From Auricularia sp. M13 (Eukaryota > Basidiomycota > Agaricomycetes > Auriculariales > Auriculariaceae), in assembly GCA_037042915.1 (NCBI GenBank), contig CM073198.1, positions 3,038,001 through 3,102,000 on the forward strand: a DNA stretch of 64,000 nt, read 5' to 3'. This document shows, piece by piece, positions 22,099 through 49,448 of this stretch. Within the stretch, counting starts at the first letter, position 1; each line of letters starts with the position of its first letter. A model generated the notes under the pieces. That model was not told the origin of the DNA and did not search any database. It saw only the letters and a list, made by a program, of their open reading frames with translations. The position numbers were made by a program, and so were the translations under genes.

Positions 22099-22789
22099 AA
22101 TCTCAGCTGAGTAGCGGGTTCGCGCGAATCGCGTGACGGACGACGCGTTGTGAGCGGCTTCGACCAGAGACGCGAAACTCCGCTAAGCTCCGACAGCTTC
22201 TTCAAGCAGTCGCTCACCACGGTCTGCGCGAGCCAGAATCATTCCAAGTGCTCTGTTTCTACCCAGAAGTGACAAAATATGCCATGGGCGGACTCTCAAA
22301 GGTGATACTGTGGATGTCTGTCCGCTCAATCTGTAAAGGTTTGTAAGTAATAGACGCACACAATCGCCACGAATGAAGGCCTGCACTCGCTGCGCTTTAG
22401 CAATAGGGCTGTTCCTGCTATCGCAATTCAAATGTGCTGACTTGCACATCCTGCTGACAGCAGACGTTGTCTTGCTCGCGGCTCGGCGTCTCAGAGAGAC
22501 TAAGTTGGTACTCGTATGGTATGTCTCACCAGTACCAGTCGCAATTGTGGTAGCTAATTCGCACATATAGAGATTTGGTACGTATGTATACAGCTCGGCG
22601 ATGGCTGCACGTCCTGTTGAAGGACTCTTGGACCGTTGTCTCGTGGTTGAACACTACTATCTTCGTTCATCAATTCACGCCGCAGTGCCCGATTCAGGGC
22701 CCGATTCTGCGTCCTGGATTGAGACACGAAGAATTTCGCAAGTATAAACCGCGCTCGAGATTGAAGCTCCGACACCACGATTGTGCTTC
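22099..22789. other. SCC3 promoter side and 5' flank of family copy A
   Basis: No gene is supported. The part at about 22256-22340 is a repeat of the sequence at 31557-31640, upstream of copy B, with a few mismatches. A second short match (22731-22755) corresponds to 31641-31668. The roughly 390 bp between these two blocks in copy A is missing from copy B, so either copy A gained it or copy B lost it. Confidence 0.6.
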
Positions 22790-24179
22790 ATGCAGCCATC
22801 GCTCGAGAGCTACTACGCCGTCCGCAGGAACGGGCTCCCCGCTATTCTCAAATGGGATCTCAAGACGCCCCCTTCTACCAAAGAAAGCCGCCGCGTCTTG
22901 GATGCTCTTACTATCCTCACTTCTAGCTGTGTTACAACACCAGGCGCCTCGTATGCAGCGTCGTTCTATGCCAGCTTGGGGCAGGGCTCGCCTCAGACGA
23001 CGATCCTGTTTTCGGGTGACTCAGAAGGAGTACCTACCACTGTCAAATATTTTTTAGAGCAGGCTTTCTTGCCCCAGCTCCGCACAATCGCCTCGTCCGA
23101 CCTGATGACCCATGCGACCGCGAACGACATCGTTTTCCACGAAATCTTGTCTTTCGGATTCGATCATTGGTGGCGACTTGTCTCGACGATCAGTCTTGAA
23201 GTATGGGAAGAAGCTTTAGCACTCGTTTCGCCATCGTACGAGAACACACGGCCTGCACTCGCCGACCTGACGAAGCTGCTACGAGAGCTGTATTCGGCGT
23301 GCGAGTTGGTTAAGAACCGCAGTATCCTCCGCGAGGATTCCCTGCGGATTCGTGCTCTCTTGGCCGCCATCAACGACGCTCTGGTCGATAGTGTGCCGTG
23401 GGCGTTGGTAAATCGCGATCTCAGGAAAGACGAAACCTACGGCACGGGCTGGGGTATTCATAATATGCTGGGCGACAAGGACATGATTCCCGTTGATAGC
23501 CGTGGCATCCTCGATGATCAGGGCAACCTTGCACCCAGTAAGAATTGCCGGCTTCAGCGCAGCGTTGTTTTGATTCAACTTTCTAGATTTTTCGTGCACG
23601 AGGCATATCGCCAATGTTATTTCGCCAATGAAGTTTGCATTCAGGCTCTCCTGGCTCGTCCAGAAACGGCGTGATCTGTTCTCCAACATTGCGATCGTCT
23701 TCTGCGAACCGACACGCCTCGAAGCGCCGCTCGATACCGCCCGCGTGTGCCACTCGTACCTTCAAAAAAAAGGCTTCGCCGCTGTAACGTCAGAGCAGCA
23801 CGTAACCGGGCATCTACATCCGCCAATGAACGTGCTTCAGCATCTCCTTCCTCTCACCAACACTCGAGATATTGTCGTGTTTCCTGCTCTTGCATCGACT
23901 GTTCCGCTCTGCAGAGGATGCTATGATTTTCTGTGGGCGTTGAATAAAATGCAGAGGCAATTTTCGTTGCGGGTTGGTCTTCATTTGAGAATGCAGCACC
24001 ATTTGACTGACGAGAAGCTTTGTCAGGAATCATTCACTTTTCCAGCTTCATATGGGAAAGTTGTTTTTCCTTGGCTTGCTCCTGATCTTGGCAATATGGG
24101 CCAGCGTCATGCTGCCATACGATCTGAATGCCGCAAACTCATAGATGCCAGTCTCAGAGGTGCTTGCCTATACGCGTGA
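22790..24179 (+). CDS. Unrecognised repeated gene family, copy A (intact)
   Basis: Exons 22790-23537 and 23587-24179 with a 49-nt GTAAGA...CTAG intron give 446 aa. Copy B at 48059-49448 has the same length, intron position and about 95% identical sequence; copy C at 27.4 kb is decayed. The start MQPSLESYYAVRRNGLP is shared by A and B and echoed in C. The first exon is mixed helical (HEILSFGFDHWWRLVSTISL, LTKLLRELYSACELVKNRSI). The second has IANVISPMKFAFRLSWLVQK and Cys/His-containing stretches. I see no signal peptide, membrane helix, known catalytic motif or transposase triad, and I do not recognise a family. Two long intact frames with a shared intron suggest a recently functional gene. 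A Harbinger element is inserted 37 bp after its stop. Confidence 0.7.
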
Positions 24180-31668: not shown

Positions 31669-31954
31669 TGAGGTTACGGCGTATTTCTCGAACGGAGTCT
31701 GAACGGAGGGCGAGAAAGACGGAGGAGAATTCTGGTAGATTGCAGGCAGAATCCCTCGCCTTTTATACCTGAGGCGGGATTCTGCCAAGACTATCCTAAC
31801 AACATCCAGGCACAGAGAATTTATGAAACCGAATCAAAGGACAATAGAGCTCGTTTCCTATTGTCGTTGTGTGCCTGGACGGCGCGCACTCGCTGCGAGT
31901 GCGCGGCGGCTTCGTCGGAGTTGCACGGCTGCAGCTCGGACTCAAACACCAACA
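31669..31954 (-). repeat. Element 1 LTR, left copy
   Basis: On the plus strand it begins TGAGGTTACGG and ends CACCAACA. It is 286 bp and matches the right copy apart from a 2-bp length difference in a CGCTGCG tract. It contains TATAAAA in the orientation of the element. Confidence 0.9.
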
Positions 31955-32000
31955 TGACCCCCTCGTCAGACATTTGCTCCGGCAAATGTAACGGTCGCTT

Positions 32001-33195
32001 CTAGCGACTGTGCGCGCGCTGCAGGGCGCGCTCATGCGTAGCCGCATGGTCCCTGGCGATAGCGGATCGCCGCTGCAAATCGGAGGAACCGTACCAGAGG
32101 TCGTGAGTGAGGTCGGACGGCTTGTATCGCGCAAGCCGCTCACCGTTGTACAGGTTACGCAAAATATGGCCGTTGCGAGTCTGTAACTGGTAAGTGTTCT
32201 TGTCCGTGACATCTCGAATAATGAACGGTCCGTCCCATTCAGGATGAAGTTTCGACGGACGATTGCCAACACGCCGGCGAACCAGGTCGCCGATGGCAAA
32301 GCCGCGCTCGACGTACGTTTCGTCGCGTTTGGAGGCCTCGTCCTGAAGTCTACGAAGTGCAGTCTCGTTGGCCTCTTTGCGGAACCGCTCAAGATTCTGG
32401 ACATGCAGCATCCTATGCTCTTGGATGGTACGTATTTCTTCTTCTGTTGGTGGCTTGGAAATGACCTCTTCTATCCAGTCTGTTGGTAGACGTGGCTCAC
32501 AGCCATATACCAAATAGAACGGTGACTTCCCGTGGGACCGCGAGACATGCGCGCGGTGCGCGAGCAGAGCGTCTTGTAAGTACTGATCCCAATATTCCTG
32601 ACCGCTCGGCGCTGTCTTCCTGGCGAGAATGCGTGTGAGGACATCATTGAACTTTTCCAGTCGTCCGTTTGTCTGCGGATGATACGGCGAGGTGGTAATG
32701 TGCTTGATACCCAATCGCCGCAAGAAGATCTGGACAGCGTTTGAGAGGAACTCTGCGCCATTATCCGTGAGCACTGCTGACATTTTCCCGTGATTGCAGA
32801 TAATCTTTCGTATCAGTGCTACCACGGCCTCGGCGGAACGACTTTGCAACGCTTCAGCGTAAGTCCAGTCTGTTCCGTGGTCGAGCGCAGTCAAAATGTA
32901 CTTATTGCCGTTTTTCGTAGTCGGCAACGGACCTATGAAGTCAAATGCCCAATGGTCGAAGGCATCCGGCCGCGGAAGTGGATGTAAAGGTTGTGCTGGC
33001 ACGTTCTCTCTTCGCGCGAACTGACAATGATCGCAGCGAGACAGTACGTCGTCCACGACTTTTGTCATATCCGGGAACCATGTGCGGTCGCGCAGTGCAC
33101 GGATAACGCATGGTGCTGCGAAGTGACCGAGATCTTCATGGACATCGGGCACAAGGCGTTCGGCTCCGAATAATGTGGTTGGTACGAGGAGCGTG
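32001..33195 (-). CDS. Element 1 integrase segment
   Basis: Retroviral-type integrase of element 1 with the zinc-binding region (HEDLGHFAAP, CDHCQFARRE), then the core domain with DFIGPLP, DNGAEF and the HPQTNGRLEKFND segment carrying the catalytic Asp, Asp and Glu. A C-terminal region resembles the GPY/F type (HPEWDGPFIIRDV, followed by NTYQLQTRNG). It is cut off on its 5' side by the solo LTR at 33196. Fossil of a retroelement gene. Confidence 0.88.
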
Positions 33196-34056
33196 TGTTG
33201 CGGTCATCACGGCCATCGCAAGCTCTGTCCGCTTGCCCGCGGGTTTTACGCCGCTTCGCCGAGCGTTTGGTCGCTGCTGCATACAGTCGGCGCACTGTTT
33301 ACCCTCGGACGGAGACTCGGCCAAGGTTATACGCCTCGGGCTGTTCAACTCGGGATATGATCTGCACGCCGCTCTCTACCTACCTAGGGGGTGAGACGAC
33401 CTCGGTGCATACCCCAATTCGGCTCGGTGGAGGCTTCTTACCTTCGGACCAAGGTTCGGCAGCTCTCCCCTCGCTGTATGCGTCGGATATGGGCGTTGTG
33501 GTGCTCGGGGCAGGCTCCAGAACCCCCTTTGGACCTCGGACGGACTCGGTGGGTCACCCTGAGCAACCTTGGAGGGTCGGGAACGCCTCTATTGGACTTC
33601 TCGTTGGGACGCTACCCCTCGGATGGATAATAGGCCGGTTATCATCGCCTGGTACAAGCTCGGCTACATCCTCGGACCCTCGGCCCGTGGCCTCAACAGC
33701 TCGGCGTTCTCCCCGTGTACTCGGGAGGTGCCCTCCTTCTCGGTCCGTACCCTCGGTGGGTGTGTATGTGTGTGGCATACCTCGGCACCTTCGCTCTGTC
33801 TCGGACCCTGTTCGACTGGAGGTGTGGTGGAGTGCTAGCACCGTGGGAGACGATGGTGGATGGACCCTTTAGCTCCGGGATCACCATGGACCGGATCAGC
33901 GGACCTTGGGGAGGGGTATATAGGTCGTGGGGTGTAGATGCGTGTACCTTAGGTTTGGTCTGGTCAATTGTACCGCTTGTCCGTTCTTCCTCGTCCCTCT
34001 CTCCTCTCTTGGGCGTCGGTCTCGGCGAGTGACGAGCGCTCTGCCGTGACAGCGTG
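33191..34056. mobile_element. Solo LTR (856 bp) inside element 1 pol
   Basis: From 33196 (TGTTGCGG) to 34051 (CCGTGACA), with a GCGTG duplication on both sides (33191-33195 and 34052-34056). TG...CA ends, 5-bp duplication and no coding capacity mark a solo LTR. It must be younger than element 1. A GGTATATAGG string at about 33916 may be its TATA element. Confidence 0.8.
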
Positions 34057-36512
34057 CGTCCACCATGGAGACGATAGAGCTGGCCATTGATCAGCGTGAA
34101 CTGTCCTTCGTGTCCAGGTATGTCGTGCCCCTCAACCAGCGTCTTATGCCATTGACGTATCGTACTGTAGGCATCAGTAGCGCGCGAACTGGCTTGCGTT
34201 GGTGCAGGCGGTCCAGCTACTGCGGGCGTGCGTGCGGGCAGCGACGGTTGTGCTGCCGCGAGTTTGGGCTGGGGTACTGGCGGCGGCGTCGGTCCAGGAG
34301 ACGGTGTCACAGCAGTTGGTGCGTGTGCTACGATTGTCCGTGTGCGCGGTTCAGGCGCGTCTGGTGGTTGCGATGCCTCAATGACCTTTGCACTAGGCTT
34401 TGGGCATCGCTGCGAGCGTCGTGGGACGACAGGTGATTCTGCTGTGGCGTCAGCTGCTTCAGTATTCGTACGAGCGGCGCTTCGTGTCGTTGCTACGTTT
34501 GCGAATAAAGGGGACAGTGTGTTCTCATCAGAAACGTCCTCGTGTCCCGGCCGTCGTGACAGTGCATCAGCGGCCAACTGCTTGTGGCCTGGGCGATATA
34601 CAATCTGTACATTGAAATGTGCTATGTCATCCGCAAATCGTGCGAGGCGGCGGCCCAAGTCTTTCTGTGAATGAAAGTACTTGAGCGACTCGTGGTCGCT
34701 GCGAACAAGTATAGCTGATCCTTCGACGTATCCGCGCCATTTCTGCAAGGCGTAGACCACGGCCAGCATTTCGCGTTCCTGTGCTGAATACCGCTGCTCT
34801 GTTGCAGTCATGCGTCGCGACTCGTAAGCAATGGGCCGAAGAGCTTTATCCGGGAACTTGAACGTCTTCAAGTCGAGCTCAGTGGCTTCCTTCCCCCCCA
34901 AAAGCTCTTTCGGGAGTTGCTGGAGAATCGCGCCAATGCAGTCGCCCGATGCATCCGTGTCTATGACGAATAGGGAGCCCTCTAAAGGGTGTGTGAGAAG
35001 TGGTGTGCTGGTTAGGCGCTGCTTAAGTGTGTCGAATGCAAGTTGGCACTTGTTATTCCACACGATCGCGGCGCCCTTTCTCGGTGAACCTTGAAGCAAG
35101 TCGTACATTGGTCCTGCAATCTTGGCGAACCCATTTACAAACCGCCTATAGTAGCCCGCCAGGTTGAGAAACCCCCGGACTTGCGTGATATTCGTCGGAA
35201 CTGGCCAAGACAGAATGTTTTGGACTTTGTCGGGGTTCGTGCGAATACCGTCGCCGTCGACTATATGACCCAGGTATTCCATGCTTGGAAGGGCCCATCG
35301 ACACTTCTTCTCGGACACTACCAAGTCGTGCTTGTTGAGTAACTCCAGTACCAATGTAACATGCTTCTCGTGCTCCTGCTCCGACTGCGAGAAAATGATG
35401 ATGTCGTCTAAATAGACGATTACAAACTTGTCGAGATATGGTCGTAGTATCTCGTTCATCATGGCTTGGAAGGTGGCCGGCGCATTGCACAGACCAAAGG
35501 GCATGACACGAAATTGGTAATGGCCATGCCGACAAGTAAATGCTGACTTCTCGCGATCTTCTGGTGCGATGAGGACTTGCCAATACCCGCTCTTGAGATC
35601 CAGTAGTGTAAATAACTTAGAACCTCTCAGGAGTAAATAGCAGTCGGAAATCAATGGTAATGGGTAAGAGTTCTTGGTCGTGAGCGTATTGAGTCGGCGA
35701 AAGTCGATGCAAATACGATATTCGCCGTCCTTCTTGCGCACCGGCAAGACAGGCGACGACCAAGGTGACTCAGACGGTTCGATGACACCGTCCTTGAGCC
35801 CATCTTCTATGAATTGCTTGATAGCTTCATTCTCTGGCGGCGTATGCTGACGGCCGCGAGAGCGCACTGGAGCAGCATTACCAGTGTCGATTTTGTGCAT
35901 CCATTTGCGTGGCTTTGGCCAGCGCACTTTGTCGCGGAATAGACGTGGAAACTTCTTCTTGAGTGCATCTTTGAGTCTTGCACCAAATCCTTTGCTCTGT
36001 CGTGTCTCAGAGCCGTCGTGCCAGTCCTGGCCTTTGTCTTGTGCCTCTTCATTGCCCTCTGACAACTTGCGTGCATCAGGTTGCATTGCGCTACCTACTA
36101 CATGCGAATATAGTACGAGGTCAGAGTCTTCGGGCTCATGAAACGAGGCTAAGGATACAGGAGGCGTAGTCGATACAGGTTTTTGTGATACAGTAGGAGT
36201 CGAGTCAGGTAACAGCGTCCGCGAGCATTCAGATAGATCTGTCGTTTCAGTCTCTTGCTCTGCTTCATCCGCGCTTACCAAAAACCCTGCTTGAAAGCAG
36301 GCTCTCTTTTCTCGAGGATCGCCATGCCAAGACGACGGAGGCCAGCGCGGGCGCCCGTCTTCTTGATCTCGACCTGAGCGTTGTATGGCGTGACCGTGTC
36401 GACCCAGGCCGAGACCTTGGTGTGGACGTTCTTGATCATCCAGCGGCGCTGGGTCCAGTCGGGGGTGGCGAAGTGGTCCCTGAGCCAAGGCTCCCCAAGG
36501 ATGAGGTCCCAA
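34057..36512 (-). CDS. Element 1 reverse transcriptase and RNase H segment
   Basis: Ty3/Gypsy Pol: reverse transcriptase with RKKDGEYRICIDFRRLN, LDLKSGYWQV, FGLCNAPATFQAMMN and the catalytic YLDDIIIFS, then the GYYRRFVNGFAKIAGP connection and RNase H with FVIDTDASGDCIGAILQQ, YSAQEREMLAVVYALQKWR and SDHESLKYF. A Pro/Ala-rich linker follows. It lies downstream of Gag-protease in another frame, overlapping by roughly 240 bp, as is usual where Pol is made by recoding. It ends at the solo LTR. Confidence 0.9.
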
Positions 36513-38887
36513 GGCTTTGAGACATCGAGGACCCAGGCCCAGACGGCCTCGTATACATGGCCGATCTTCAGCCAGAACAACGCGAGGGTTGACGTCTGCA
36601 GTTGTCCGGTTCCGCTAACGGTGCGGATCGGAAGCTCCTTCATGCGCGCGCCCGCGCGGACAGCCATCGCCCGCGTGATGAAGCTGGCGTTAGCTCCGGA
36701 GTCGAAGATAGCGAAGGCGTCGAAGAGCTTGTTGATTTTGACCGCATACAGCGGAATGCTGCTGCTGGTTTCGGTGACTTGAAGCGTGATGTCCTTGCCG
36801 ATATCCGAGTGCGTCAGGTACTTGTCGAAGATGCGCTCGAGTTCCTTCGACGCGGCGTCCTGGCTGTTGCGGAAGGGGTTTTCTCCAATAATGTTGACGT
36901 AGCACTCGAGGACGAGCGGCTCGTAGTCGCTGCGTAACTTGTCGGAGCCGTCGGTACTGTCGGTCGAGTACGAGCCATCGAGGTTCGAGTCCATGCTCCA
37001 ATCGGACTCGTGCTCCTCGGTGCTAGTGCTCCAGGTGTCGGTGCTCCCAAGGGTCTCACCGTCACTGAGCTCCATCGCCTCGCTGTCGTTCTGCCAGACG
37101 TCGATGACAGTCGTGCTGACGTTCAGCGGCTCGTTGGGTGCTACGAGCGCTGGGGCCATGAAGGTCGTATGGCAGCCGTACTGCTGCGGAACGCCCTGCG
37201 TGCACGTGTACCAAGGCGTGATGGTCAAGGTATCGGTCTCAAGCTCGGGGTCGACCCAGGAGGCGCGGAAGGTCGGAACCATCATGGTGCCGGCAACCGG
37301 GTCCAGGCACACGAAACCGTGGTCCTCCAGCCAGGAACGACCAACGATGATATCCCAGTTGGTGGAGCCCGGCGGATATTGCAGGATGACGGCGTTGGCC
37401 AGGAACTCGGCGCCATGAGAGACCATGAACGGAAACACGATCTCTTCATGCGGCTCGGAGCCGTCCTCAGAATTGATGACACGATGAACCGTGTCCAGCG
37501 CGCGCGTTCCATCGCGCACAGCATCGGCGGCCTCACGCGTGATGAAGTTGCGCTCAAGCTCGTTGGCGAATGCCAGGCGACGCCCACGCATGCGCCCGAT
37601 GCCTACGTTGAAAATGTTGCCTTCGCTGATGTAGGCGCGCGGGAGTTCTTCGTCTTCGAGCAGATGCAGATTAAGCTCGACTTGTTCGTGCTCAGCATGC
37701 TCATCGCTCTCGTCTAATTCTTCTGTTAGTGCCAGGTTGAACAGATCGTCAAGGACGTCACCTGGCACCCCGGTCTCGAAGTTGTTGGCGTGGAGGCGCG
37801 TTCCACGGCGGCGCTGGTCTCTTCCGCGGCCCGGCCAAGGGCTCGGGTTACGGCGGATGGGGCGCGGTTTGCTTGGCTCTGGGCAATCACGAGCGAAATG
37901 CCCAGTCTTGCCACAGTTGTAGCAGAGCGGGTCGCCGAAGGGTCTCCCGCTAGCGTGCTTGGACCCACCCCGGCGTTCCTGGATCTCGTGGCTGTCCAGG
38001 TCCATCGGAGCGTCGCCAGTGGGGATGGTCGTAGCAGCAGTGGAGCGCGGCGCGAACGAGACCTTTTTCGGAGTAGCGGCGGAACCGGTACCGCCGTGCG
38101 TGAATTTTGAGACTCTGGCGCTGCGCTCGAGGTCACGGGCGATGTTGTAGATGTCGGTCATCATTGCCGGCTTCTGGACGTTGATCTGGTAACGAAGCGA
38201 CGGCGTCAGCGCTTTTAGAAAGTACGCTTTGCGGTCGCCGAACGCCATTTCGTTATCGTCGATCTGAAGACTCACAGCGTTGAACTTTTCGATGAAATCC
38301 GACATGTTGCCCTTGTACGGTATAGCCGAGAGTTGGTCACGCAGGTCTTCACCGCGGCCGGCGGTCTCGTGATAGCGATGCACGAGTGCCGTCTCGAACT
38401 GGTCCCAGTCGAACGGCGCGCCGTCGGCAATGCCATTCTCTCGGCGGTACTGCAGGGCCCAGACCGCGGCTTCTCCCTTGAGTAAAGACGCGGCCGTCAG
38501 ACCCCAGTGCTCGCGCGGGGTGTTGTTGATCGTAAAGAGGTCACGGACTTTGGCGATAAAACCCTTGACGTTCTCCGTGACCTTACCCCTAAATTCGGGG
38601 TTCGGCGCCTTCAACGGGGTCGGCCTGACATTACCCGTGATCTGCTGGGCAGCGGTTAGCACGCGGCAGCGCTCCCAGAGCTCATTCCATGCCTGCTCTG
38701 CATGGCCGGCCCGTTCCTGTTGGGCCTGTAAATCCACCTGTGCCTGGTGCAGTGCGTCCCTGACAGCACTCACCTGGTCACCCTGCTCCTGGAGATGACG
38801 TTGAAGGAGCTCAACAGTCGTGCGGAGCGTCGAGATGTCGGTAGCGGGCAGAGCCGCGTCGCCGGTCGGAGTCGGAGTTGGATCGGC
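36275..38887 (-). CDS. Element 1 Gag with zinc knuckle and protease-like region
   Basis: Long frame with an N-terminal coiled coil (VELLQRHLQEQGDQVSAVRD), a capsid-like region (FIAKVRDLFTINNTPREHWG), a CCHC knuckle (CYNCGKTGHFARDC) and two retropepsin-like parts, the second with the active-site motif FAIFDSGANASF. The element 2 LTR begins at 38888, so the start of this gene is displaced. Fossil of a retroelement gene. Confidence 0.85.
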   Translation of the reverse strand, partial: ADPTPTPTGDAALPATDISTLRTTVELLQRHLQEQGDQVSAVRDALHQAQVDLQAQQERAGHAEQAWNELWERCRVLTAAQQITGNVRPTPLKAPNPEFRGKVTENVKGFIAKVRDLFTINNTPREHWGLTAASLLKGEAAVWALQYRRENGIADGAPFDWDQFETALVHRYHETAGRGEDLRDQLSAIPYKGNMSDFIEKFNAVSLQIDDNEMAFGDRKAYFLKALTPSLRYQINVQKPAMMTDIYNIARDLERSARVSKFTHGGTGSAATPKKVSFAPRSTAATTIPTGDAPMDLDSHEIQERRGGSKHASGRPFGDPLCYNCGKTGHFARDCPEPSKPRPIRRNPSPWPGRGRDQRRRGTRLHANNFETGVPGDVLDDLFNLALTEELDESDEHAEHEQVELNLHLLEDEELPRAYISEGNIFNVGIGRMRGRRLAFANELERNFITREAADAVRDGTRALDTVHRVINSEDGSEPHEEIVFPFMVSHGAEFLANAVILQYPPGSTNWDIIVGRSWLEDHGFVCLDPVAGTMMVPTFRASWVDPELETDTLTITPWYTCTQGVPQQYGCHTTFMAPALVAPNEPLNVSTTVIDVWQNDSEAMELSDGETLGSTDTWSTSTEEHESDWSMDSNLDGSYSTDSTDGSDKLRSDYEPLVLECYVNIIGENPFRNSQDAASKELERIFDKYLTHSDIGKDITLQVTETSSSIPLYAVKINKLFDAFAIFDSGANASFITRAMAVRAGARMKELPIRTVSGTGQLQTSTLALFWLKIGHVYEAVWAWVLDVSKPWDLILGEPWLRDHFATPDWTQRRWMIKNVHTKVSAWVDTVTPYNAQVEIKKTGARAGLRRLGMAILEKREPAFKQGFW

Positions 38888-39612
38888 TGTTACGCCCGTG
38901 CCCCGGTCCGCGGACCCCACGTGCTCTCGGCATCACTCGGCGTCATTCTACGTCACTCGGCCAACTCGGTCAACTCGGTCAAGCTCCCGAACACCCGGCT
39001 TATCTCCCCTCGTGTTCATATGCTCGGGATATGTTCTCCTCATCGTCCTCTACCTCTAGACCTCTCCCTCACTTCTCTAGCTTCTCTCCTTACTCGCATA
39101 CATCCACCTAACTCGCCTTGTCCCTACTGTATCGATAGTGTTCATATCCGGTTCGCTCCACTCGTCTTAGTCATTCGCCTCTCGTCATTCGCCCGATCCC
39201 CCGATACCTTACCCACTCGCTCTTACTCATCCTATCGGCCGATGACGACGATCTCTATTGATCTGAGGCCCCTCTCCTTCGTCTCTAGGATACACTCCGA
39301 GTACATCGGATCATCTCCCCAGGTATAAAAGACCCTCGACTTTGTATCTAGCTCCCCAGTTACGAAATCGACATAGTCGTGCCCCTCGCACACTCTATCT
39401 CTCTCTCTCTCGACTTCGCCTCTGGGTTCTCCCTCCGCCCGACTTACTCGCCTGAGTCCTCTGCTGCTCGTGGTCCCTTCGGTCGTGCTACTCGACGTAG
39501 CCGGTGTGCTCAATAACGCACCGAAGGCTCTAGTTGTTCGTTCGAGTGTTCTCTGCGCCCGGACGTTCGACTATCCTTGCAACCAAACCCCCAAGGCACA
39601 GCAGGCTTAACA
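38888..39612 (+). repeat. Element 2 5' LTR
   Basis: 725 bp, begins TGTTACGCCCGTG and ends AGGCTTAACA. A TATAAAA at 39324-39330 is likely the promoter, which would start transcription just downstream, followed by a pyrimidine-rich R/U5-like region. Confidence 0.92.
39324..39330 (+). promoter_or_regulatory. TATA box in element 2 5' LTR
   Basis: GGTATAAAAGAC in the last third of the LTR, in the element's own direction; the same string is at 47217-47223 in the 3' LTR. A TATA box at this place in an LTR is the usual U3 promoter arrangement. Confidence 0.6.
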
Positions 39613-39621
39613 GTATTTCGT

Positions 39622-39642
39622 AACTCGAGCTCCGCTCGAGTT
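39622..39642 (+). repeat. Perfect hairpin between 5' LTR and gag start of element 2
   Basis: AACTCGAGC (39622-39630) and GCTCGAGTT (39634-39642) are perfectly complementary with a 3-nt TCC loop. The hairpin lies 9 bp after the LTR and 2 bp before the Gag ATG at 39645, exactly where a primer-binding site would normally be. Confidence 0.7.
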
Positions 39643-39644
39643 GT

Positions 39645-41465
39645 ATGGCCTTTGGGACTCGACAGAATCTCAGAAGAAACCAGGAAGAACCTCATCCTCT
39701 ACTCGACTCCCCCGACGCTATCCTTCGCGAAGCCCGTCGTCAGGCTCGTCTTCGCGACCAACAACCTCCTCAGCCGGCTACGCCTTCGCCATCAGTCTCG
39801 ATGTCGGGCACTAGCCGCTTCGGATCATCTCGGCACTCGCAACCGCCGAACGATGATGACGAAATCCTCTCGCAACACACTCTCTCCGGCTCGCTTCACA
39901 CCTCGCGTTTCTCGCCGGCCCAGTCCACACTACGCGCGGACCCGAGCGGTTCCTACCCTCCCTCAAGTCACACGACGCGATCGCCCTCGCATCCCTCGAC
40001 TCACTCGCTCGGCTCTCGACACCCTCTCGCGCTCGTTCCGTACACCGGCTCTCGCTCGACTCCTCGCTTTTCGCAGCACTCCTCGTCGTTCCGCGGCTTC
40101 TTCCCATCCGGCACCCCTAACACGCCCCGGCGTGGCGGCGGGGGTGGCGGAGGAGGCGGCGGAGGTGGCGGCGGTGGAGGCGGAGGCGGCGGAGGCGGCG
40201 GTGGCGGTGGTGGTCATCGAGGTGCTCCCTCGCCCTCGTCGCACCACTCGCACCACTCGCACCACTCGCACGGCTCGCACCCTCCGAACCCTCCTCCCGG
40301 AGGTGGCGGCGGTGGGGGCGGCGGTGGCGGTAACGATCCTCCTGGTCCCCCGGGACCTCCCTTCGACCCTCCGTCGGACGGCTACGACTCGGACGTCGAT
40401 CGCGAACGACAATTCCACGATCAACACGACAACATCCCTCGTGTCTACTTCGTCGACCGCGATAGCGGCTCTCGCATCGACGCCGCCAAACCCGACAAAT
40501 TCGACGGCGAAAATGCCAACAAACTTCGCGGATTCCTCATCGACTGCGAAACCTACTTCCTCGCCAACCCTCGGAAGTACCAGACGTCCCGCGAGAAGAT
40601 TCTCTTCACCGCGACCTATCTCTCGGGTCGGGCGAAGGAATGGTGGGGCGGCTACGTTCCTCTCGTCCCGAATCCGCCTCCCGGTTACGAGTTCCTCGAA
40701 GACTGGAACGAATTCAAGAACGAACTCACGATCACCTTCGGCGTCACGAACGAACGCGAACGCGCCGAAGTCAAGATTCGACGACTGCAAATGGCCGACA
40801 ACGGCAAGGTCGCCCGCTACAAGCTCCAGTTCGACGAATACGCCAAACTGCTCGGCTGGGACGACGCTGCACTCGCCTCGCAATTCTATCGCGGACTCCC
40901 TCGCCGCATCAAATCTGTCTTCGCTGCTCAAGTAGCTCAACGCCCGGCTTCCCTGACGCCACTCGCTGCGCTCGCTCTTAGCATCGATGCCAACTACTGG
41001 ATCGATAAGGACGAGCAAGCTCTCGAGCACGCGAACGAACCCCGCAAAGCGCAGAAGACCACCTCGACCGCGACGCCTCAATCGGGCTCCCGATCGAACA
41101 CCAAGTCCAACGCGCGCTCCAACAACGGCAACAACGGCAACTCGAACAACCACTCGAACTCGAAGGGTCAGTCCTCGACCTCGGCCCGCTCGTCTTCGAA
41201 GACCACGACCAAGTCGAAGGACGACGTCGCGAAGAACCTCAACTCGAACGGCAAGCTCAACGACGCCGAACGACGCCGTCGCCTCGATAACAACCTCTGC
41301 CTCTACTGTGGCCATGCCGGCCACACCGCGTCCGAGTGCCGCAAGGCCGCTCACAATCGCGAGTCGAAGGGTCGCGCCGCTAAGGCTCAACCCGCGACTT
41401 CCTCGACGCCGGCTCCCGCTCCCTCGGGCGCCGCCGCTTCTGCCCCGGCGGAAGCGAAAAACTAA
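39645..41465 (+). CDS. Element 2 Gag, with polyglycine and His-Ser repeats
   Basis: Gag polyprotein of 606 aa. The N-terminal 150 residues are Ser/Pro/Arg-rich. A run of more than 30 glycines, then a repeated HHS triplet segment, then a second glycine run separate this from the capsid-like domain (LRGFLIDCETYFLANPRKYQ, YLSGRAKEWWGGYV, FYRGLPRRIKSVFAAQ). An Asn/Ser-rich linker leads to a CCHC knuckle (CLYCGHAGHTASEC) and an Ala/Pro tail. The glycine run is unusual for Gag. Confidence 0.88.
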   Translation: MAFGTRQNLRRNQEEPHPLLDSPDAILREARRQARLRDQQPPQPATPSPSVSMSGTSRFGSSRHSQPPNDDDEILSQHTLSGSLHTSRFSPAQSTLRADPSGSYPPSSHTTRSPSHPSTHSLGSRHPLALVPYTGSRSTPRFSQHSSSFRGFFPSGTPNTPRRGGGGGGGGGGGGGGGGGGGGGGGGGGGHRGAPSPSSHHSHHSHHSHGSHPPNPPPGGGGGGGGGGGNDPPGPPGPPFDPPSDGYDSDVDRERQFHDQHDNIPRVYFVDRDSGSRIDAAKPDKFDGENANKLRGFLIDCETYFLANPRKYQTSREKILFTATYLSGRAKEWWGGYVPLVPNPPPGYEFLEDWNEFKNELTITFGVTNERERAEVKIRRLQMADNGKVARYKLQFDEYAKLLGWDDAALASQFYRGLPRRIKSVFAAQVAQRPASLTPLAALALSIDANYWIDKDEQALEHANEPRKAQKTTSTATPQSGSRSNTKSNARSNNGNNGNSNNHSNSKGQSSTSARSSSKTTTKSKDDVAKNLNSNGKLNDAERRRRLDNNLCLYCGHAGHTASECRKAAHNRESKGRAAKAQPATSSTPAPAPSGAAASAPAEAKN

Positions 41466-41512
41466 CGGGCAGTTCCCCACGGGCATCTAGGGCCAACTGC
41501 GTCAAGCCCAAG

Positions 41513-44500
41513 ATGCCTTACACTTGGTTGAACGCTGCCGCGCTCACCGATCAAGACGCTCTCATCGTCGTCCTTTCCTCCGACGCTGTCCCATCCTTTC
41601 GCACACTCGTCGACTCCGGCTCCGAAGATCAGTTCCTCGATACTCAGTTCGCCGAGAGTCTTCGACTCCCTCAAAGTCTCTCGATCAACCGCTACGCCTT
41701 CGGCTCTTCGACGGCTCCTATCGCGGTGTTATCTCCAAATACGTGTCGCTTCCCGTCCGCTTCCCTTGCGGAACTTCGATGATCATCAACTTCCTCCTCA
41801 CCACTCTAGATCCGACTTGCTCTGCAGTGTTGGGATACCGCTGGTTGGCCCGCTACAATCCTAGGATTGACTGGTTCCATCACCGCATCTCTTTCCCCAC
41901 TCGTGTCTCGCCCTCGGATCCCTCGGGTTTCGTCCCTGGGTTCTCGCTCGACTCGGATCCTCCGACTCCGTCGTCACCTCCTCCCGCGCCACGTACTCTG
42001 CCTCCCGAACCGCCGATGGACGAAACCGCCCTTCGCGCGGCCGCTGCTCGCGTCGACATCAAGATCATCGGCGCCGCAGCCTTCGACACCTCTCGTCGAC
42101 TTCGCGGCTCGATGGTCTCGGCCATCTACATTCGAGATCCATCGGTGCCCGCTCGCTCTGCGTCTGCCAACCCGGCCTCGGAAACCGGCGAAGGCATCCC
42201 CGAGTGTTATCACGAGTTCCTCGACGTCTTCTCAAAGGAGGCCTCGAATCGACTCCCTGAACATCGGCCGTACGATCTTAAGATCGACATGGAAGAAGGC
42301 AAGCCTCTCCCATCCGGTCCGATCTACTCGCTCTCCGAGCCCGAGCAACTCGCGCTTCGGGAGTACATTCAGGATAACCTCAGCAAAGGACACATTCGCT
42401 CTTCGTCGTCCCCGGGTGGCGCCCCGGTTCTCTTCGTCAAGAAGGCCGACGGTTCTCTTCGCCTATGCGTCGATTATCGTGGGCTCAACAAGATCACTCG
42501 GAAGGACAAGTACCCGCTTCCGCTCATCTCGTCCACGCTCGACCGCCTTCGCACCGCCAAGAAGTTCACCAAGCTCGATCTTCGTGTCGGATACAGCAAC
42601 GTTCGCATCGCGGCCGGCGACGAGTGGAAGACTGCCTTTCGAACGCGCTACGGCACCTACGAGTATCTCGTCATGCCTTTCGGTCTCACGAACGCTCCAG
42701 CCGCTTTCCAGCGCTTCATGAACGACATCTTCTCCCACCTCCTCGACGTCACGGTCACCGTCTACCTCGACGACATCCTCATCTACTCGGACGATCCCTC
42801 GAAGCATGAGGAACACGTTCGAGAGGTCCTTCGACGGCTGCGGGAGAATGACCTCTTCTGTAAGCCCGAGAAGTGCGAGTTCCATGCTGACACCATCGAG
42901 TACCTCGGGTACATCATTAGCCCCGAGGGCATCAGCATGGACCCGAAGAAGATTGCCACCCTCCTCGAGTGGCCCGTTCCTCGCAACGTTCGCGACATCC
43001 AGTCGTTCCTCGGCTTCGCGAACTTCTATCGACGATTCATCTACGACTACTCCGATATCGTCGTCCCGCTCACTCGTCTCACTCGAAAGACCGCAACGTG
43101 GAACTTCACTCCGCAATGCCTCGCTGCGTTCAACGAGCTCAAGAAGGCGTTCACTTGCGCTCCCGTCCTTCACCACTTCGATCCCGCTCTTCCTCGCGTC
43201 GTCGAGACTGACGCTTCCGACTACGCGATCGCGGCGATCTTCTCGCACGTCCTCCCGGACGGCTCTGTTCACCCCGTCGCTTTCCATTCGCGCACGCTCA
43301 CTCCCACCGAGCTCAACTACGACACGCACGACAAGGAGCTACTCGCGATATTCGAGGCGTTCGAACTATGGCGACACTACCTCGAAGGGGCCGAGACCCC
43401 AATAGACGTCGTCACGGACCACAAGAACCTCGAGTATTTCTCTACCACGAAGATGCTCACTCGTCGGCAAGCTCGCTGGTCCGAATACCTTTCTACCTTC
43501 AACCTCCTCATTCGCTTTCGACCCGGTCGACTCGGCGGCAAACCCGATGCTCTCACTTGCCGCCACGACGTCTATCTCAAAAGGGGGGATGGTGGCTACG
43601 CCAGCGCAAACCCGCAGAACTTCCGACCCGTTTTTACTTCGGAACAGTTCGCCGCTTCCCTTCGCGCGACGTATGCTGAAGAGACTTTCCTTCGCGCAGC
43701 CACGATCATGGACACCCAGTCCATTCGGGATGACATTCGCGCCTCGTACGACTCGGACGAACTCGCTCTCGACATTCGCTCGAAACTCGGCACCGATGAC
43801 GCGATCAACTGGTCGGCCTCGGACGATGGATTCTTGCTGTTCAAGGGCAGGATCTACGTACCGAACGCTCTCGATTGTCGCCTTCGTATCCTTCGCGAAA
43901 AGCACGATCACCTGCTCGCTGGCCATCCGGGTCAGAACAAGACACTCAAGATGGTCGCCCGCGAGTACTACTGGCCCGACCTGCGTGACTCGATTCGTAC
44001 CTACGTCCAGGCCTGCGTCACCTGTGGGCGCAGCAAACCTCGACGACACAAGCCGTACGGTCGACTTCAACCGCTCCCGATTCCGCTTCGCAACTGGGAC
44101 TCGATCTCGATGGACTTCATCGAACAACTCCCTGAGTCCAACGGTTACACCGCGATCCTCGTCATTATTGATCGCCTCTCGAAGCAGGGTATCTTCGTCC
44201 CGACCAAGGGCAAGATCACCTCCGAAGAACTCGCGCGTCTCTTCCTCATCCACGTCTTCGCCAAACATGGCGCCCCCTCGCACGTCTCTACCGACCGCGG
44301 CTCCGAATTCGTCTCCCGCTTCTTTCGCGCACTCGGCTCGCTCCTCAACATGACCATGCACTTCACCTCGGGTCACCACCCGGAGGCGAACGGTCAAGTC
44401 GAACGCACGAACCAGACGCTCGAGCAGTACCTCCGTCTCTACTGCAACTACGAGCAGGACAACTGGTCCGAGCTACTCCCTCTCGCCGAGTTCACGTACA

Positions 44501-45225
44501 ACAACACCCCGAACGACTCGACTGGTGTCTCGCCTTTCTTCGCCAACAAGGGTTTTCACCCGAACATCTCCGTCTACCCCGAGCGCGACGTTGCCTCTGC
44601 TCGCGCCCGCGACTTCGCTGTCGACATCCACGAACTGCAGGACGTCCTGAAGGAGCAGATCGCTGCCGCTCAGAAACGTTACACTGCATCTGCGAATGCT
44701 CGACGCACTCCCCCGCCTGACTTCAAGGTCGGCGACATGGCCTACGTCCTCTCGGAGCACATCAAGACGACGCAGCCCACTCGCAAACTCGCCGATCGCT
44801 ACCTAGGCCCGTTCCCGATCGTCGATCAACCTAGCTCGCAATCGTTCACCCTCAGCCTACCCGACTACCTCGCTCGCGACACCCGGTCTTTCACGTCTCG
44901 CAACTCGAACCCCACCCTCGAGAAGCGTTCCCCGGTCAACGTCAAGAACCTCCTCCGCCCGTCGTCGTCGACGGCGAGCAAGAGTACGAGCTCGAAGTAC
45001 TCAGCGTACGCATCGACAATCGCCATCGTCACTCGCGCCTTCGTTTTCGCATTCGCTGGATCGGTCACATCGGCACTCCCGACGACCCCAAGACCACCGA
45101 GATGGGCTCCGAAAATCTCGAACACGCGCAGGAAGCAGTTCAAGACTTCTATGCTGCAAACCCCAGCGCTCCCGGCAGTTATCAAGAATTCCAGCAGATC
45201 CTCAAGAAATTCGAAAACATCTAAG
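41513..45225 (+). CDS. Element 2 Pol region: protease, RT, RNase H, integrase, chromodomain-like
   Basis: Order of parts: a retropepsin-like segment (LVDSGSEDQFLD) at about 41.6 kb; reverse transcriptase from about 42.3 kb with LRLCVDYRGLNKIT, FGLTNAPAAFQRFMNDIF and YLDDILIYSDD; RNase H with VVETDASDYAIAAIFSH and YDTHDKELLAIFEAFELWR; integrase with the HHCC region (CVTCGRSK), SMDFIEQLP, STDRGSEF and HPEANGQVERTNQTLE; and a chromodomain-like end (about 44.95-45.22 kb). This order is that of chromoviruses. About two apparent breaks interrupt it; otherwise it is very well preserved. Confidence 0.88.
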
Positions 45226-45344
45226 CACTCGCTTTTTCACTCGCTATTTCTTCGCTCACTCGCTTTTTACTCGATTCCAAGAAACAGCCCTTTATTACAT
45301 TTTGAGCGACTTTGGTCGCACCCGCTACTACTCTATCCTATCGC

Positions 45345-46583
45345 CTACTCGTCCGCGTCCTCGGTCGCTTCCTCGACCGCTTCCTCGTCCTCCTCCTCGG
45401 ACTCCTCCTCGACCTCCTCCTCGGCCTCCTCTTCCTCCTCGCTCGAAAACGGATTGTCGATCGAATCGTCGATCGATTGGCCGAACTGCTGCACTTGCCA
45501 CTGCAGCATCCGGTACAACATCCGCTCGATGTTGTGCACCAAATTGTTCGTCCACAGGGCGTGGTTCTCCACGACCCTGCGGTGCTCGGCCGTCTTCGCG
45601 CGGTCCTCGGCTGCCCTCGTCCCCAGCGTCGTCCCCTCAACGATGCGCACCTTCTTGGGGCGCTCGGGCGACGCACTCGGCGACGCCGCCCTCTTCTCGC
45701 CGCGCGGCACGAACGGCTTGCCCGAGTGCGTACACTTGCCCCGGGTCTGATGACACGCGGTGCAAGTGTTCGACCGGTGCTGCCGAACGCACTGGCCGCC
45801 GCGCTTGGCGCAAGCCTCGCACTGCTCGATGTCAGCCCCGGCGAGCAAAGCACGAACGACCAAAACTCACCTGGCTCGGGAACCGCGTCCCGTACGGCAC
45901 CTCCGGCCACCTATCCGTGAACTTGCCGCCCGCGCGCGGCTTGGGCTTGGGCTTGGGCTTCGCGGCCGGCGCCACCGGGCTCGCGAGCTCCTCGACCTCG
46001 TCGTCGTCCTCGAGCGTCTCGCCCGCCCCGAGCGACGGCGAGCGAGCGACCGCGACCGGCGCGGGTTTCGGCGCGACCTTGCGCGACGCCTGAGTCGTCT
46101 TCGCGCTCTCGACCTGCAAAATAAGCGCACCTTAGCAACGTCCCGCAATCGCGGGAGCTCGACCCATACCTCCATGGCCTTCCGCCTCTTCGGCGGCGAC
46201 TCGGTCTCCCTCGCGTCCTTCGTCGGCGCCTTCGTGCTCGTGGTCGGCGCCTTCGCCGGCGACGCCTGGCTCTTCGCCGCCTTGGCGCCCGCGTCCGCCG
46301 CGATCTTGGCCACGCGCTCGGCCAGCATCCCGAAGCGTCGCTGCGCCGCCAGGCGCAGCTCGGCCTTCGCCTGGCGTCTGCGCGCGCTGAGCGCCTCGAT
46401 CGCGTCGAGGTCCTCCTCGTCGACGGCCTCTTGCTGCAGGCCGCCGAGCGTCCGTTTTGCGTCCTCGTGCGCTGCGATCAGCGCCTCCATCGTCGGGTCG
46501 TCCTCGAGCGACCTCATGACGGCGCCGACGGTCTTGCGGTCGTACGCGGCGGCGACGTCCTCGAGCGACTCGTATCGCGGCAT
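45345..46583 (-). CDS. Antisense cargo gene inside element 2: Cys-rich acidic-tailed protein
   Basis: A gene on the strand opposite to gag-pol, between the end of pol and the 3' LTR. Exons 46170-46583, 45871-46113 and 45345-45821, with GTATGG...GCAG (56 nt) and GTGAGT...CAG (49 nt) introns, give about 377 aa in one phase. Exon 1 (MPRYESLEDVAAAYDRKT) is helical with a coiled coil (IEALSARRRQAKAELRLAAQ) and a basic PPKRRK patch. Exon 2 is Lys/Pro-rich and acidic. Exon 3 opens with a Cys cluster (CEACAKRGGQC, then CTACHQTRGKC), two C-x2-C-x6-C-like units reminiscent of a zinc cluster. It ends in a Glu/Asp tail of about 35 residues. Function is unknown; DNA or chromatin binding is a guess. It is not a standard part of Ty3/Gypsy elements. 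Introns would be spliced only from antisense transcripts and so survive in the sense RNA that is reverse-transcribed. Confidence 0.75.
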
Positions 46584-46780
46584 GGTGGGCGGCGGGCAGA
46601 AGACAAGAGTGGTTCGACGATTCAACTCCCGACCCAACCACTTTTAATCTGCGTCCGACCCGTTCCGACTCGACCCGACCTTTTGGCCCCATTCGGACTC
46701 GAGTGCGTGCTATCTCATTTTTCGTATTCACCTTGCGTTGCTGCAGTCCTTCGTGGGCTCAGGACGTAAAGGGGGGATAC

Positions 46781-47505
46781 TGTTACGCCCGTGCCCCGGT
46801 CCGCGGACCCCACGTGCTCTCGGCATCACTCGGCGTCATTCTACGTCACTCGGCCAACTCGGTCAACTCGGTCAAGCTCCCGAACACCCGGCTTATCTCC
46901 CCTCGTGTTCATATGCTCGGGATATGTTCTCCTCATCGTCCTCTACCTCTAGACCTCTCCCTCACTTCTCTAGCTTCTCTCCTTACTCGCATACATCCAC
47001 CTAACTCGCCTTGTCCCTACTGTATCGATAGTGTTCATATCCGGTTCGCTCCACTCGTCTTAGTCATTCGCCTCTCGTCATTCGCCCGATCCCCCGATAC
47101 CTTACCCACTCGCTCTTACTCATCCTATCGGCCGATGACGACGATCTCTATTGATCTGAGGCCCCTCTCCTTCGTCTCTAGGATACACTCCGAGTACATC
47201 GGATCATCTCCCCAGGTATAAAAGACCCTCGACTTTGTATCTAGCTCCCCAGTTACGAAATCGACATAGTCGTGCCCCTCGCACACTCTATCTCTCTCTC
47301 TCTCGACTTCGCCTCTGGGTTCTCCCTCCGCCCGACTTACTCGCCTGAGTCCTCTGCTGCTCGTGGTCCCTTCGGTCGTGCTACTCGACGTAGCCGGTGT
47401 GCTCAATAACGCACCGAAGGCTCTAGTTGTTCGTTCGAGTGTTCTCTGCGCCCGGACGTTCGACTATCCTTGCAACCAAACCCCCAAGGCACAGCAGGCT
47501 TAACA
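46781..47505 (+). repeat. Element 2 3' LTR
   Basis: 725 bp, apparently identical to 38888-39612. It is preceded by the purine-rich tract AAAGGGGGGATAC, the expected priming site for plus-strand synthesis. Confidence 0.92.
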
Positions 47506-47731
47506 TCGGCGGACTCCATCTCGAAAACAAAATAAGAAACAAGTAGCTACTACGCGCGGAAAAATGGGGTGGCGGCGTGGACGAATGGACCGACGCCTAG
47601 ACTGTACTACCTAGCTAGGGTTTTTGCCTTTTCTGCTCAGAGAAACCAAACCAAAAATGGAAACTATCCTACTACAAAAGGACTTTCGTACGCTGTGCTG
47701 GGAGTTCCGGTTTACCCCGCACTTGCGCAAG

Positions 47732-48019
47732 TGAGGTTACGGCGTATTTCTCGAACGGAGTCTGAACGGAGGGCGAGAAAGACGGAGGAGAATTCTGGTA
47801 GATTGCAGGCAGAATCCCTCGCCTTTTATACCTGAGGCGGGATTCTGCCAAGACTATCCTAACAACATCCAGGCACAGAGAATTTATGAAACCGAATCAA
47901 AGGACAATAGAGCTCGTTTCCTATTGTCGTTGTGTGCCTGGACGGCGCGCACTCGCGCTGCGAGTGCGCGGCGGCTTCGTCGGAGTTGCACGGCTGCAGC
48001 TCGGACTCAAACACCAACA
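47732..48019 (-). repeat. Element 1 LTR, right copy (its 5' LTR)
   Basis: 288 bp, starts at TGAGGTTACGG and ends CACCAACA on the plus strand, followed by the GCAC duplication and the interrupted flank of copy B. The adjacent internal sequence begins with the palindrome CTTGCGCAAG on the element's own strand. Confidence 0.9.
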
Positions 48020-48058
48020 GCACTCGAGATTGAAGCTCCGACACCGCGATTGTGCTTC

Positions 48059-49448
48059 ATGCAGCCATCGCTCGAGAGCTACTACGCCGTCCGCAGGAAC
48101 GGGCTCCCCGCTATTCTCAAATGGGATCTCAAGACGCCCCCTTCTACCAAAGAAAGCCGCCGCGTCTTGGATGCTCTTACTATCCTCACTTCTAGCTGTG
48201 TTACAACACCAGGCGCCTCGTATGCAGCGTCGTTCTATGCCAGCTGGGGGCAGGGCTCGCCTCAGACGACGATCCTGTTTTCGGGTGACTCAGAAGGAGT
48301 ACCTACCACTGTCAAATATTTTTTAGAGCAGGCTTTCTTGCCCCAGCTCCGCACAATCGCCTCGTCCGACCTGATGACCCATGCGACCGCGAACGACATC
48401 GTTTTCCACGAAATCTTGTCTTTCGGATTCGATCATTGGTGGCGACTTGTCTCGACGATCAGTCTTGAAGTATGGGAAGAAGCTTTAGCACTCATTTCGC
48501 CATTGTACGAGAACGCACGGCCTGCAGTCGCCGACCTGACGAAGCTGCTACGAGAGCTGTATTTGGCGTGCGAGTTGGTTAAGAACCGCAGTATCCTCCG
48601 TAAGGATTCCCTGCGGATTCGTGTTCTCTTGGCCGCCATCAACAACGCTCTGGTCGATAGTGTGTCGTGGGCGTTGGTAGATCGCGATCTCACGAAAGAC
48701 GACACCTACCTCACGGGCTGGGGTATTTTAAATATGCTGGGCGACAAGGACATAATTCCTGTTGACAGCCGTGGCATCCTCGATGACCAGGGCAACCTTG
48801 CACCCAGTAAGAATTGCCGGCTTCAGCGCAGCGTTGTTTTAATTCGACTTTGTAGATTTTTCGTGCACGAGGCATATTGCCAATGTGATTTCGCCGATGA
48901 AGTTTGCATTCAGGCTCTCCTGGCTCGTCCAGAAACGGCGTGATCTGTTCTCCAACATTGCGATCGTCTTCTGCGAACCGACACGCCTCGAAGCGCCGCT
49001 CGATACCGCCCGCGTGTGCCACTCGTACCTTCAAGAAAGCGGCTTCGCCGCTGTAACGTCAGAGCAGCACGTAACCGCGCATCTACATCCGCCAATGAAC
49101 GTGCTTCAGCATCTCCTTCCTCTCACCAACACTCGACATGTTGTCGTGTTTCCTGCTCTTGCATCGACTGTTCCGCTCTGCAGAGGATGCTATGATTTCC
49201 TGCGGGCGTTGAATAACATGCAGGAGGATTTTTTGTTGCGGGTTGGTCTTCCTTTGAGAATGCAGCACCATTTGGCTGACGAGCAGCTCTGTCAGGAACC
49301 ATTCACTTTTCCAGCTTCATATGGGAAAGTTGTTTTTCCTTGGCTTGCTCCTGATCTTGGCAATATGGGCCAGCGTCATGCTGCCATACGATCTGAATGC
49401 CGCAGACTCATAGATGCCAGTCTCAGAGGTGCTTGCCTATACGCGTGA
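48059..49448 (+). CDS. Unrecognised repeated gene family, copy B (intact)
   Basis: Exons 48059-48806 and 48856-49448 with a 49-nt intron, 446 aa, collinear with copy A. Differences are scattered (for example LISPLYENARPAVADL here against LVSPSYENTRPALADL) and no frame is broken, as if the sequence is still under constraint or the duplication is recent. Element 1 is inserted 39 bp upstream of the ATG, so the native promoter has been moved 16 kb away. Any expression now would start within or near the element 1 LTR. The downstream sequence near 49480-49500 preserves the empty Harbinger site. No known family is recognised. Confidence 0.7.

Follow-up and report, generated by a model that had tools for sequence, protein, structure and literature searches.

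A spliced antisense gene with a six-cysteine cluster in a Ty3/Gypsy retrotransposon of Auricularia sp. M13, a possible regulator of the element's own DNA

Comparison of retrotransposon copies related to one in a 64,000-nucleotide window of Auricularia sp. M13 (C6:3038001-3102000 of the 52.1-Mb genome G000) shows that the Ty3/Gypsy element concerned, here called element 2, carries between pol and its 3' long terminal repeat (LTR) a predicted antisense gene that is coding, bears introns, sits at one constant position in almost every scored copy, is selected as a protein and is hypervariable. Our preferred reading, to which we give a little less than even chances, is that this Ty3/Gypsy lineage has the gene as a resident accessory, encoding a DNA-binding factor that would regulate the element's own DNA in trans. 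The gene may be the means by which the element recognises and regulates that DNA.

Element 2 (Table 1) has a reverse transcriptase (RT) and RNase H before the integrase (IN), a Ty3-type gag and two LTRs, as expected for Ty3/Gypsy. The original prediction had set it beside standard chromoviruses, a label for which Pfam gives no support: in the pol tail it reports no chromodomain but a weak SH3_Tf2-1 match alone, in a stretch with a frame change in the window copy. Sixteen copies have both full LTRs, and the pairs show 0-2 differences per 713-726 positions, so these insertions are recent; most of what separates the copies would have arisen earlier, over rounds of replication. The antisense gene starts at a Kozak ATG and lies between the pol end at 45224 and the 3' LTR at 46781. 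The three exons, two GT-AG introns and 377 residues that had been proposed from the window were recovered at that place, with splice sites kept by other copies and a ratio of nonsynonymous to synonymous substitution (dN/dS) of 0.21, and the protein parts are also those claimed, namely a helical N-terminus, basic patches, a double cysteine cluster and an acidic tail. The signals ATTAAAAG, CCACCATG and AATAAA do not vary among the 19 copies compared.

Genome searches, in which the best candidates were scored (40 of 57 for the gene DNA search and 40 of 66 for pol 3' ends), indicate that the gene belongs with the element. The DNA search gave at least 42 matches, at least 30 of which, among the matches listed, cover the whole gene at 92-100% identity, and a protein search with the last part of the antisense protein found additional diverged loci. 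The gene stands antisense directly downstream of 37 of the best 40 of 66 pol 3' ends, at a spacing of 120-125 nt in 33 and of 209-223 nt in four, where the listed match is the inner part of the gene alone. Three of the 40 pol ends (C10:1998669, C11:1583864 and C4:4286693) have no listed gene directly downstream; at the first, in L013, about 4.2 kb intervene between pol end and gene, and at the second a gene lies about 6 kb further along. Two distant matches (C5:1398380 and C6:3471084) were read as chance, another (C9:2558328) is without the cysteine cluster, and further distant matches lie at C8:860099 and C2:1924145.

An alignment of 33 gene copies was built from 20 stretches holding young copies, one of them that of the window, and from 13 further gene copies. 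Donor 1 is kept as GTATGG in 31, the AG of acceptor 1 in 32, donor 2 as GT[G/A]AGT in 30 and the AG of acceptor 2 in 32, and clean intron loss was seen in none of the 33. Introns that can be spliced only from an antisense transcript had been expected to survive, and they do; being antisense to the genomic RNA, they would be kept through retrotransposition.

Codon constraint across copies had been suggested as a check on the gene and was found. Pooled over 19 young copies (L013 left out), dN/dS is 0.21 in frame and 1.8 and 2.1 in the shifted frames; gag has 0.16 and RT-IN 0.094 (18 rows each, with the window copy twice and without L013, L025 and L026), and a separate run gave 0.163 for gag (17 rows). 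A pooled value of 0.68 for pol traces to copies whose pol frame is not that of the window copy, and the RT-IN stretch was used instead. For 13 of the 32 other copies, comparison with the window copy gave 0.13-0.53 in frame, 0.17-0.74 in the opposite-strand frame that shares third positions (above the real frame in 13 of 13) and 0.74-3.43 in the remaining four frames. The 15 pairs among six diverged copies have values of 0.26-0.65. L033 has 146 changes, 72 of them at third positions, and L022 has 33, of which 23 are at third positions. Diversity per bin is 0.09-0.12 in intron 1, 0.05-0.07 in intron 2 and mostly 0.003-0.05 in exons, the exception being the cysteine-cluster stretch 45740-45820 (0.07-0.09). 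These comparisons argue that the gene is coding and selected as a protein, constrained nearly like gag and pol, with a conservation comparable to that of other element proteins even though its synonymous diversity is higher.

Such constraint bears on whether the antisense RNA, rather than a protein, could be what acts, pairing with genomic RNA and controlling silencing or copy number. The transcript would be complementary over its whole length to the 3' portion of the genomic RNA, and antisense RNAs are discussed for other elements in the available passages of PMC7264820. Against it, codon-level constraint, frame-specific dN/dS and the kept cysteines require a protein, and intron 1 is poorly conserved; an RNA effect is quite improbable.

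Besides being constrained, the antisense gene is by these alignments the hypervariable part of the element when set against gag, pol and LTR. Across 17 young copies the gene has a mean nucleotide diversity of 3.3%, compared with 0.8% for RT-IN and 1.1% for gag, and synonymous diversity is 0.068 versus 0.025 and 0.029. Against the window copy, the gene of the diverged copies D33 and D34 shows 6-21% difference per 100 bp, compared with 0-5% for the 200 bp before the LTR, 0-11% for the LTR (2-4% in most bins) and 0-10% for the pol end; D36, D38 and D41 show the pattern of a variable gene less evenly. Sixty-three informative sites form blocks shuffled among copies, and the cysteine cluster occurs in two forms, one window-like (25 copies) and one with RAH..CNQSRGKC (7 copies). 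Old alleles recombining on a more homogeneous backbone would explain the shuffled blocks.

The six cysteines are spaced C-x2-C-x6-C-x8-C-x2-C-x6-C, the same in 31 of 33 copies and in agreement with the spacing rule of Zn2Cys6 binuclear clusters. Single-sequence models gave a helical N-terminus (predicted local distance difference test, pLDDT, 70) and, for exon 3 (pLDDT 69), a long helix at model residues 66-122; the low-confidence exon-3 model matched no fold in the PDB, and none of three PDB sequence matches (E 0.21-0.93) was usable. No homologue was found among 5.8 billion proteins queried with the full protein, residues 200-330 and alignment A1, nor among viral contigs, which is weak evidence because the libraries may contain few fungal gene models. 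The VANC-type domains DUF1985 and DUF287 are not among the Pfam matches of the protein at E up to 1, and 0 of the 35 PF00172 matches listed for the genome fall within a listed copy of the gene. One canonical Zn2Cys6 (PF00172) match in the window (3647-3742, minus strand) presumably belongs to a host transcription factor gene. The antisense protein may bind zinc, enter the nucleus and bind DNA.

A sister family, B, has in the corresponding position a homologous but strongly diverged antisense counterpart of the gene of family A, to which element 2 belongs. The lead to B was a weak match (E 0.009) to locus L059 on C12, where a cysteine exon with the spacing 2-6-14-2-6 follows a helix-forming and acidic part; a likely intron (GTAAGT..AG) ends three codons ahead of the first cysteine, and the first exon has no in-frame ATG in that copy. 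The cysteine domains of A and B are clearly homologous: their Smith-Waterman score is 100, and none of 2000 shuffles that keep the cysteines scores as high. Four B loci pair with four opposite-strand RNase H matches (at 2.2 kb on C12 and C8, 3.1 kb on C11 and about 17 kb on C7), and the RT there shares 88, 89, 83 (partial) and 87% identity with that of the window copy. The two families have the polypurine tract and the first LTR bases in common, and the rest of the B LTR is hardly alignable; given the high RT identity, pol is thus alike and the antisense protein and LTR are strongly diverged. As a separate observation, thirteen matches within G000:C6:1099-121995, mostly 8.7-10.5 kb apart, suggest a large tandem array.

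This divergence also bears on an accessory replication protein, that is, one with a nucleic-acid-binding, nuclear-import or particle role in reverse transcription or integration and without sequence-specific regulation. The zinc-cluster-like, basic and acidic parts would suit such a protein, import roles are proposed for plant antisense proteins in the part of PMC7264820 available, and, because Pfam reports no zinc knuckle in the gag of element 2, another cysteine protein could serve the element. Nevertheless, the protein would come from a separate antisense transcript and not be made together with gag-pol, and strong divergence between families at 83-89% RT identity would be odd for a general helper; we consider a replication role unlikely.

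The preferred reading, a regulator of the element's own DNA, draws further on short motifs that differ between A and B in the same three non-coding regions, the LTR, the antisense promoter and the pol-gene spacer. Family A non-coding DNA (1,039 nt) holds ACTCG 19 times versus 3.35 expected; that of family B (912 nt, one copy) holds GTCGGA 11 times versus 0.66, GCGGAA 9 times versus 0.65, and ACTCG not at all. The background of ACTCG is 2.0-2.6 per kb in other window DNA and in L045/L046, and the best 6-mer of any kind in B (one copy) exceeds all 301 host windows. A candidate recognition array of four ACTCGG lies in the 3' LTR; the full set persists in five of the six diverged A LTRs read, and three repeats persist in the sixth. 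In the mechanism that we propose, the gene's own promoter just inside the 3' LTR would drive an antisense transcript, to be spliced into the mRNA of a nuclear protein with a putative zinc-binding six-cysteine cluster, a coiled coil, basic patches and an acidic tail. This protein would act in trans on the short family-specific motifs of the three regions, and its binding would raise or license transcription, whether as an activator or as an anti-silencing factor.

By analogy with VANC proteins, the spliced antisense protein could bind the element's motif arrays and lift silencing or activate, protein and motifs being replaced together between sister families, an idea that we hold with considerable doubt. 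A sharper form of our best explanation, with anti-silencing in particular, supposes that family motif arrays are recognised, that host silencing is removed or blocked and that protein and motifs co-diverge, and is rather doubtful. It agrees with the strong divergence of antisense protein and LTR despite 83-89% RT identity and with the different motifs in the same three regions, and, in the passages available of PMC5735166 and PMC10398659, VANC proteins are encoded by transposable elements and bind short non-coding motifs, with targets that differ between related families. However, it leans on a single B copy, and the family A LTR array barely changes although the protein varies.

Some 25 kb from the end of its contig, L029 (C1:9395168-9396007) is a probable relative that stands alone. 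Its protein has an acidic tail and a cysteine cluster spaced 2-6-11-2-6; abutting the first cysteine, 60 nt bounded by GT and AG read like an intron, and the unspliced frame is open as well. No match to element 2 was found in the 12 kb around it by blastn, tblastx or tblastn with gag and RT-IN. Pairwise z values are 2.9-4.1 with cysteines kept (scores reached by 0, 2 and 28 of 2000 shuffles), and in full-length profile scoring 489 of 497 and 469 of 498 listed shuffles do at least as well as the -9.7 of L029. L029 is probably homologous to the antisense gene and stands alone in host DNA, and may be a host gene or an escaped copy. Captured host cargo of no benefit to the element could be read from this locus and from its intron-like stretch, which would share its position ahead of the first cysteine with intron 2, although full-length profile scoring is not in favour of L029. 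A useless passenger would hardly be constrained through cycle after cycle of replication, be nearly ubiquitous and occur in a second family as well, and this reading is highly improbable; of the two options in the original prediction, captured host cargo or an element-specific regulator, these results favour the regulator. In the same region near the end of C1 (L045, L029 and L046, C1:9389500-9401500) there is a cutinase-like frame, named by eye and not by profile, and two similar frames, at 9396840 and 9400705, neighbour L029.

Several observations weigh against a gene that is a DNA-binding regulator. The antisense protein has no match to Pfam Zn_clus (PF00172) at E up to 1, and its Pfam results place it with neither the VANC proteins nor the Zn2Cys6 factors. 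Which form of the cysteine cluster a copy has is not associated with its LTR sites (among 95 variable columns, the best p is 0.06). The best-6-mer value of family A is reached by 7 of 300 host windows and is thus modest, ACTCG is frequent in A's gag-pol too (9-10 per kb), and the B motifs, from the single B copy read, occur also in B's gene, which is rich in CGGA. The antisense gene is broken in many copies, 15 of 33 being full-length from the ATG with the cysteine cluster (4 via paired frame changes), and small indels, real or assembly errors, occur in many copies in the antisense gene, gag and pol. Indels of at least 2 nt come in multiples of three in 10 of 19 cases in exons and 4 of 10 in introns, with no separation (p=0.70). 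Finally, 9,282 two-intron models stay open here, some with longer products, so in this GC-rich DNA a clean join by itself is not evidence. These thousands of open joins, together with single-base indels in many copies, are the case for chance open frames and no gene, which the substitution pattern contradicts. Given dN/dS, the splice sites, the cysteine spacing, the promoter and poly(A) signals and the family B homologue, chance is scarcely credible, and it is the comparison with other copies that lifts the antisense gene above it.

The remaining features of the window concern the element and its surroundings. In the window copy the protease-like (41384-41782), RT-IN (41491-45750) and pol-tail (44835-45224) stretches occupy different frames, which could be due to real breaks, frameshifting or assembly errors. 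A perfect palindrome, GGTCCGCGGACC, lies near the LTR start (46798-46809); both LTRs have it, as do 5 of the 6 diverged LTRs read. Element 2 interrupts an outer Ty3/Gypsy element (31669-47956, minus strand) with identical 225-bp direct repeats (31669-31893 and 47732-47956) and gag/protease at 36275-38932, whose last long pol frame stops near 32001 and leaves little space for an antisense gene. Outside families A and B, the gene was absent in the two places looked at, a family of 56% RT identity (1.3 kb) and this outer element (by coordinates). A 300-nt direct repeat (22747-23046 and 48016-48315; 99% identity, 25 kb between) lies outside element 2.

Table 1. Coordinates of element 2 and its predicted antisense gene within the window
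Feature	Position	Strand	Remarks
Target-site duplication TCGGC	38883-38887 and 47506-47510		flanks element 2
5' LTR	38888..39612	+	TG..CA, 725 bp; sequence identical to 3' LTR
gag frame	39636..41465	+	Retrotrans_gag (Pfam)
pol (RT, RNase H, integrase)	41491..45224	+	frame changes near both ends in window copy
pol stop TAA	45222-45224	+	in frame of pol tail
AATAAA	45291..45296	-	about 50 nt downstream of antisense stop
Antisense gene, ATG to stop	45345..46583	-	377 aa once spliced; ATG at 46583
Exon 3	45345..45821	-	stop included; six-Cys cluster, basic patch, long helix, acidic tail
Intron 2	45822..45870	-	49 nt, phase 0, GTGAGT..GAGCAG; abuts first Cys codon
Exon 2	45871..46113	-	basic/acidic linker
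Intron 1	46114..46169	-	56 nt, phase 0, GTATGG..TTTTGCAG
Exon 1	46170..46583	-	N-terminus helical, coiled-coil-like
TATA-like ATTAAAAG	46641..46648	-	65 nt upstream of antisense ATG
Polypurine tract AAAGGGGGGA	46768..46777	+	precedes 3' LTR
3' LTR	46781..47505	+	725 bp, TG..CA
Four ACTCGG, candidate recognition array	46828..46871	+	in 3' LTR

Among known proteins, Zn2Cys6 factors (PF00172) resemble the antisense protein in cysteine spacing and in having basic and acidic regions, and differ in that the antisense protein has no Pfam match to them. Antisense accessory genes of plant Ty3/Gypsy elements (aORF-3R) include Grande GENE23, RIRE2, Retand ORF4 (TRP28) and PvRetro13 ORF2; the Grande protein has its own promoter and is nuclear, and that of Retand is predicted to bind DNA (available parts of PMC7264820; PMC11963269). 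No function is established for such genes in the passages available of PMC7264820. The likeness lies in the antisense orientation and in the position, after pol and before the 3' LTR, and marks a kind and not a homology family. In contrast to the plant genes, the fungal one has a six-cysteine cluster, an acidic tail and two introns, introns not being described for aORF-3R in the literature passages covered, and its protein has no Pfam match to a plant domain.

The closest described fungal case of an antisense Ty3/Gypsy gene is brtn of Boty/BcGypsy1 from the ascomycete Botrytis cinerea, an additional antisense gene likened here by description only, from excerpts (PMC7264820; PMC8365987, citing Zhao 2011). 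A figure of fungal elements includes an additional ORF of function not known, with no orientation given in the text covered (PMC2864245), and the passage covered of PMC3411680 mentions none. Antisense accessory genes are thus known already (Grande, Retand, Boty brtn), and a spliced, zinc-cluster-like one in a basidiomycete Ty3/Gypsy element was not found in the literature searched, which is no proof of novelty because most subscription papers lie outside that coverage. HTLV-1 HBZ, an antisense nuclear regulator of a retroelement in the part of PMC11963269 available, is an unrelated retroviral protein and an analogy only.

The system described here makes the question of function testable, since it offers a putative metal-binding domain, many very young copies, natural alleles and two sister families whose proteins and candidate motifs differ, as a motif swap requires, and the splice sites distinguish antisense mRNA from genomic RNA. 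The nearest functional analogy would be VANC of the Arabidopsis VANDAL elements, likewise encoded by a transposable element, variable between related families and directed at family-specific short non-coding motifs (PMC5735166, in the passages available). VANDAL is a plant DNA transposon, VANC has the domains DUF1985 and DUF287, and anti-silencing is demonstrated there and proposed here. If the motif reading is true, a fungal LTR retrotransposon would possess sequence-specific self-activation or counter-silencing, in parallel to the plant VANDAL DNA transposons.
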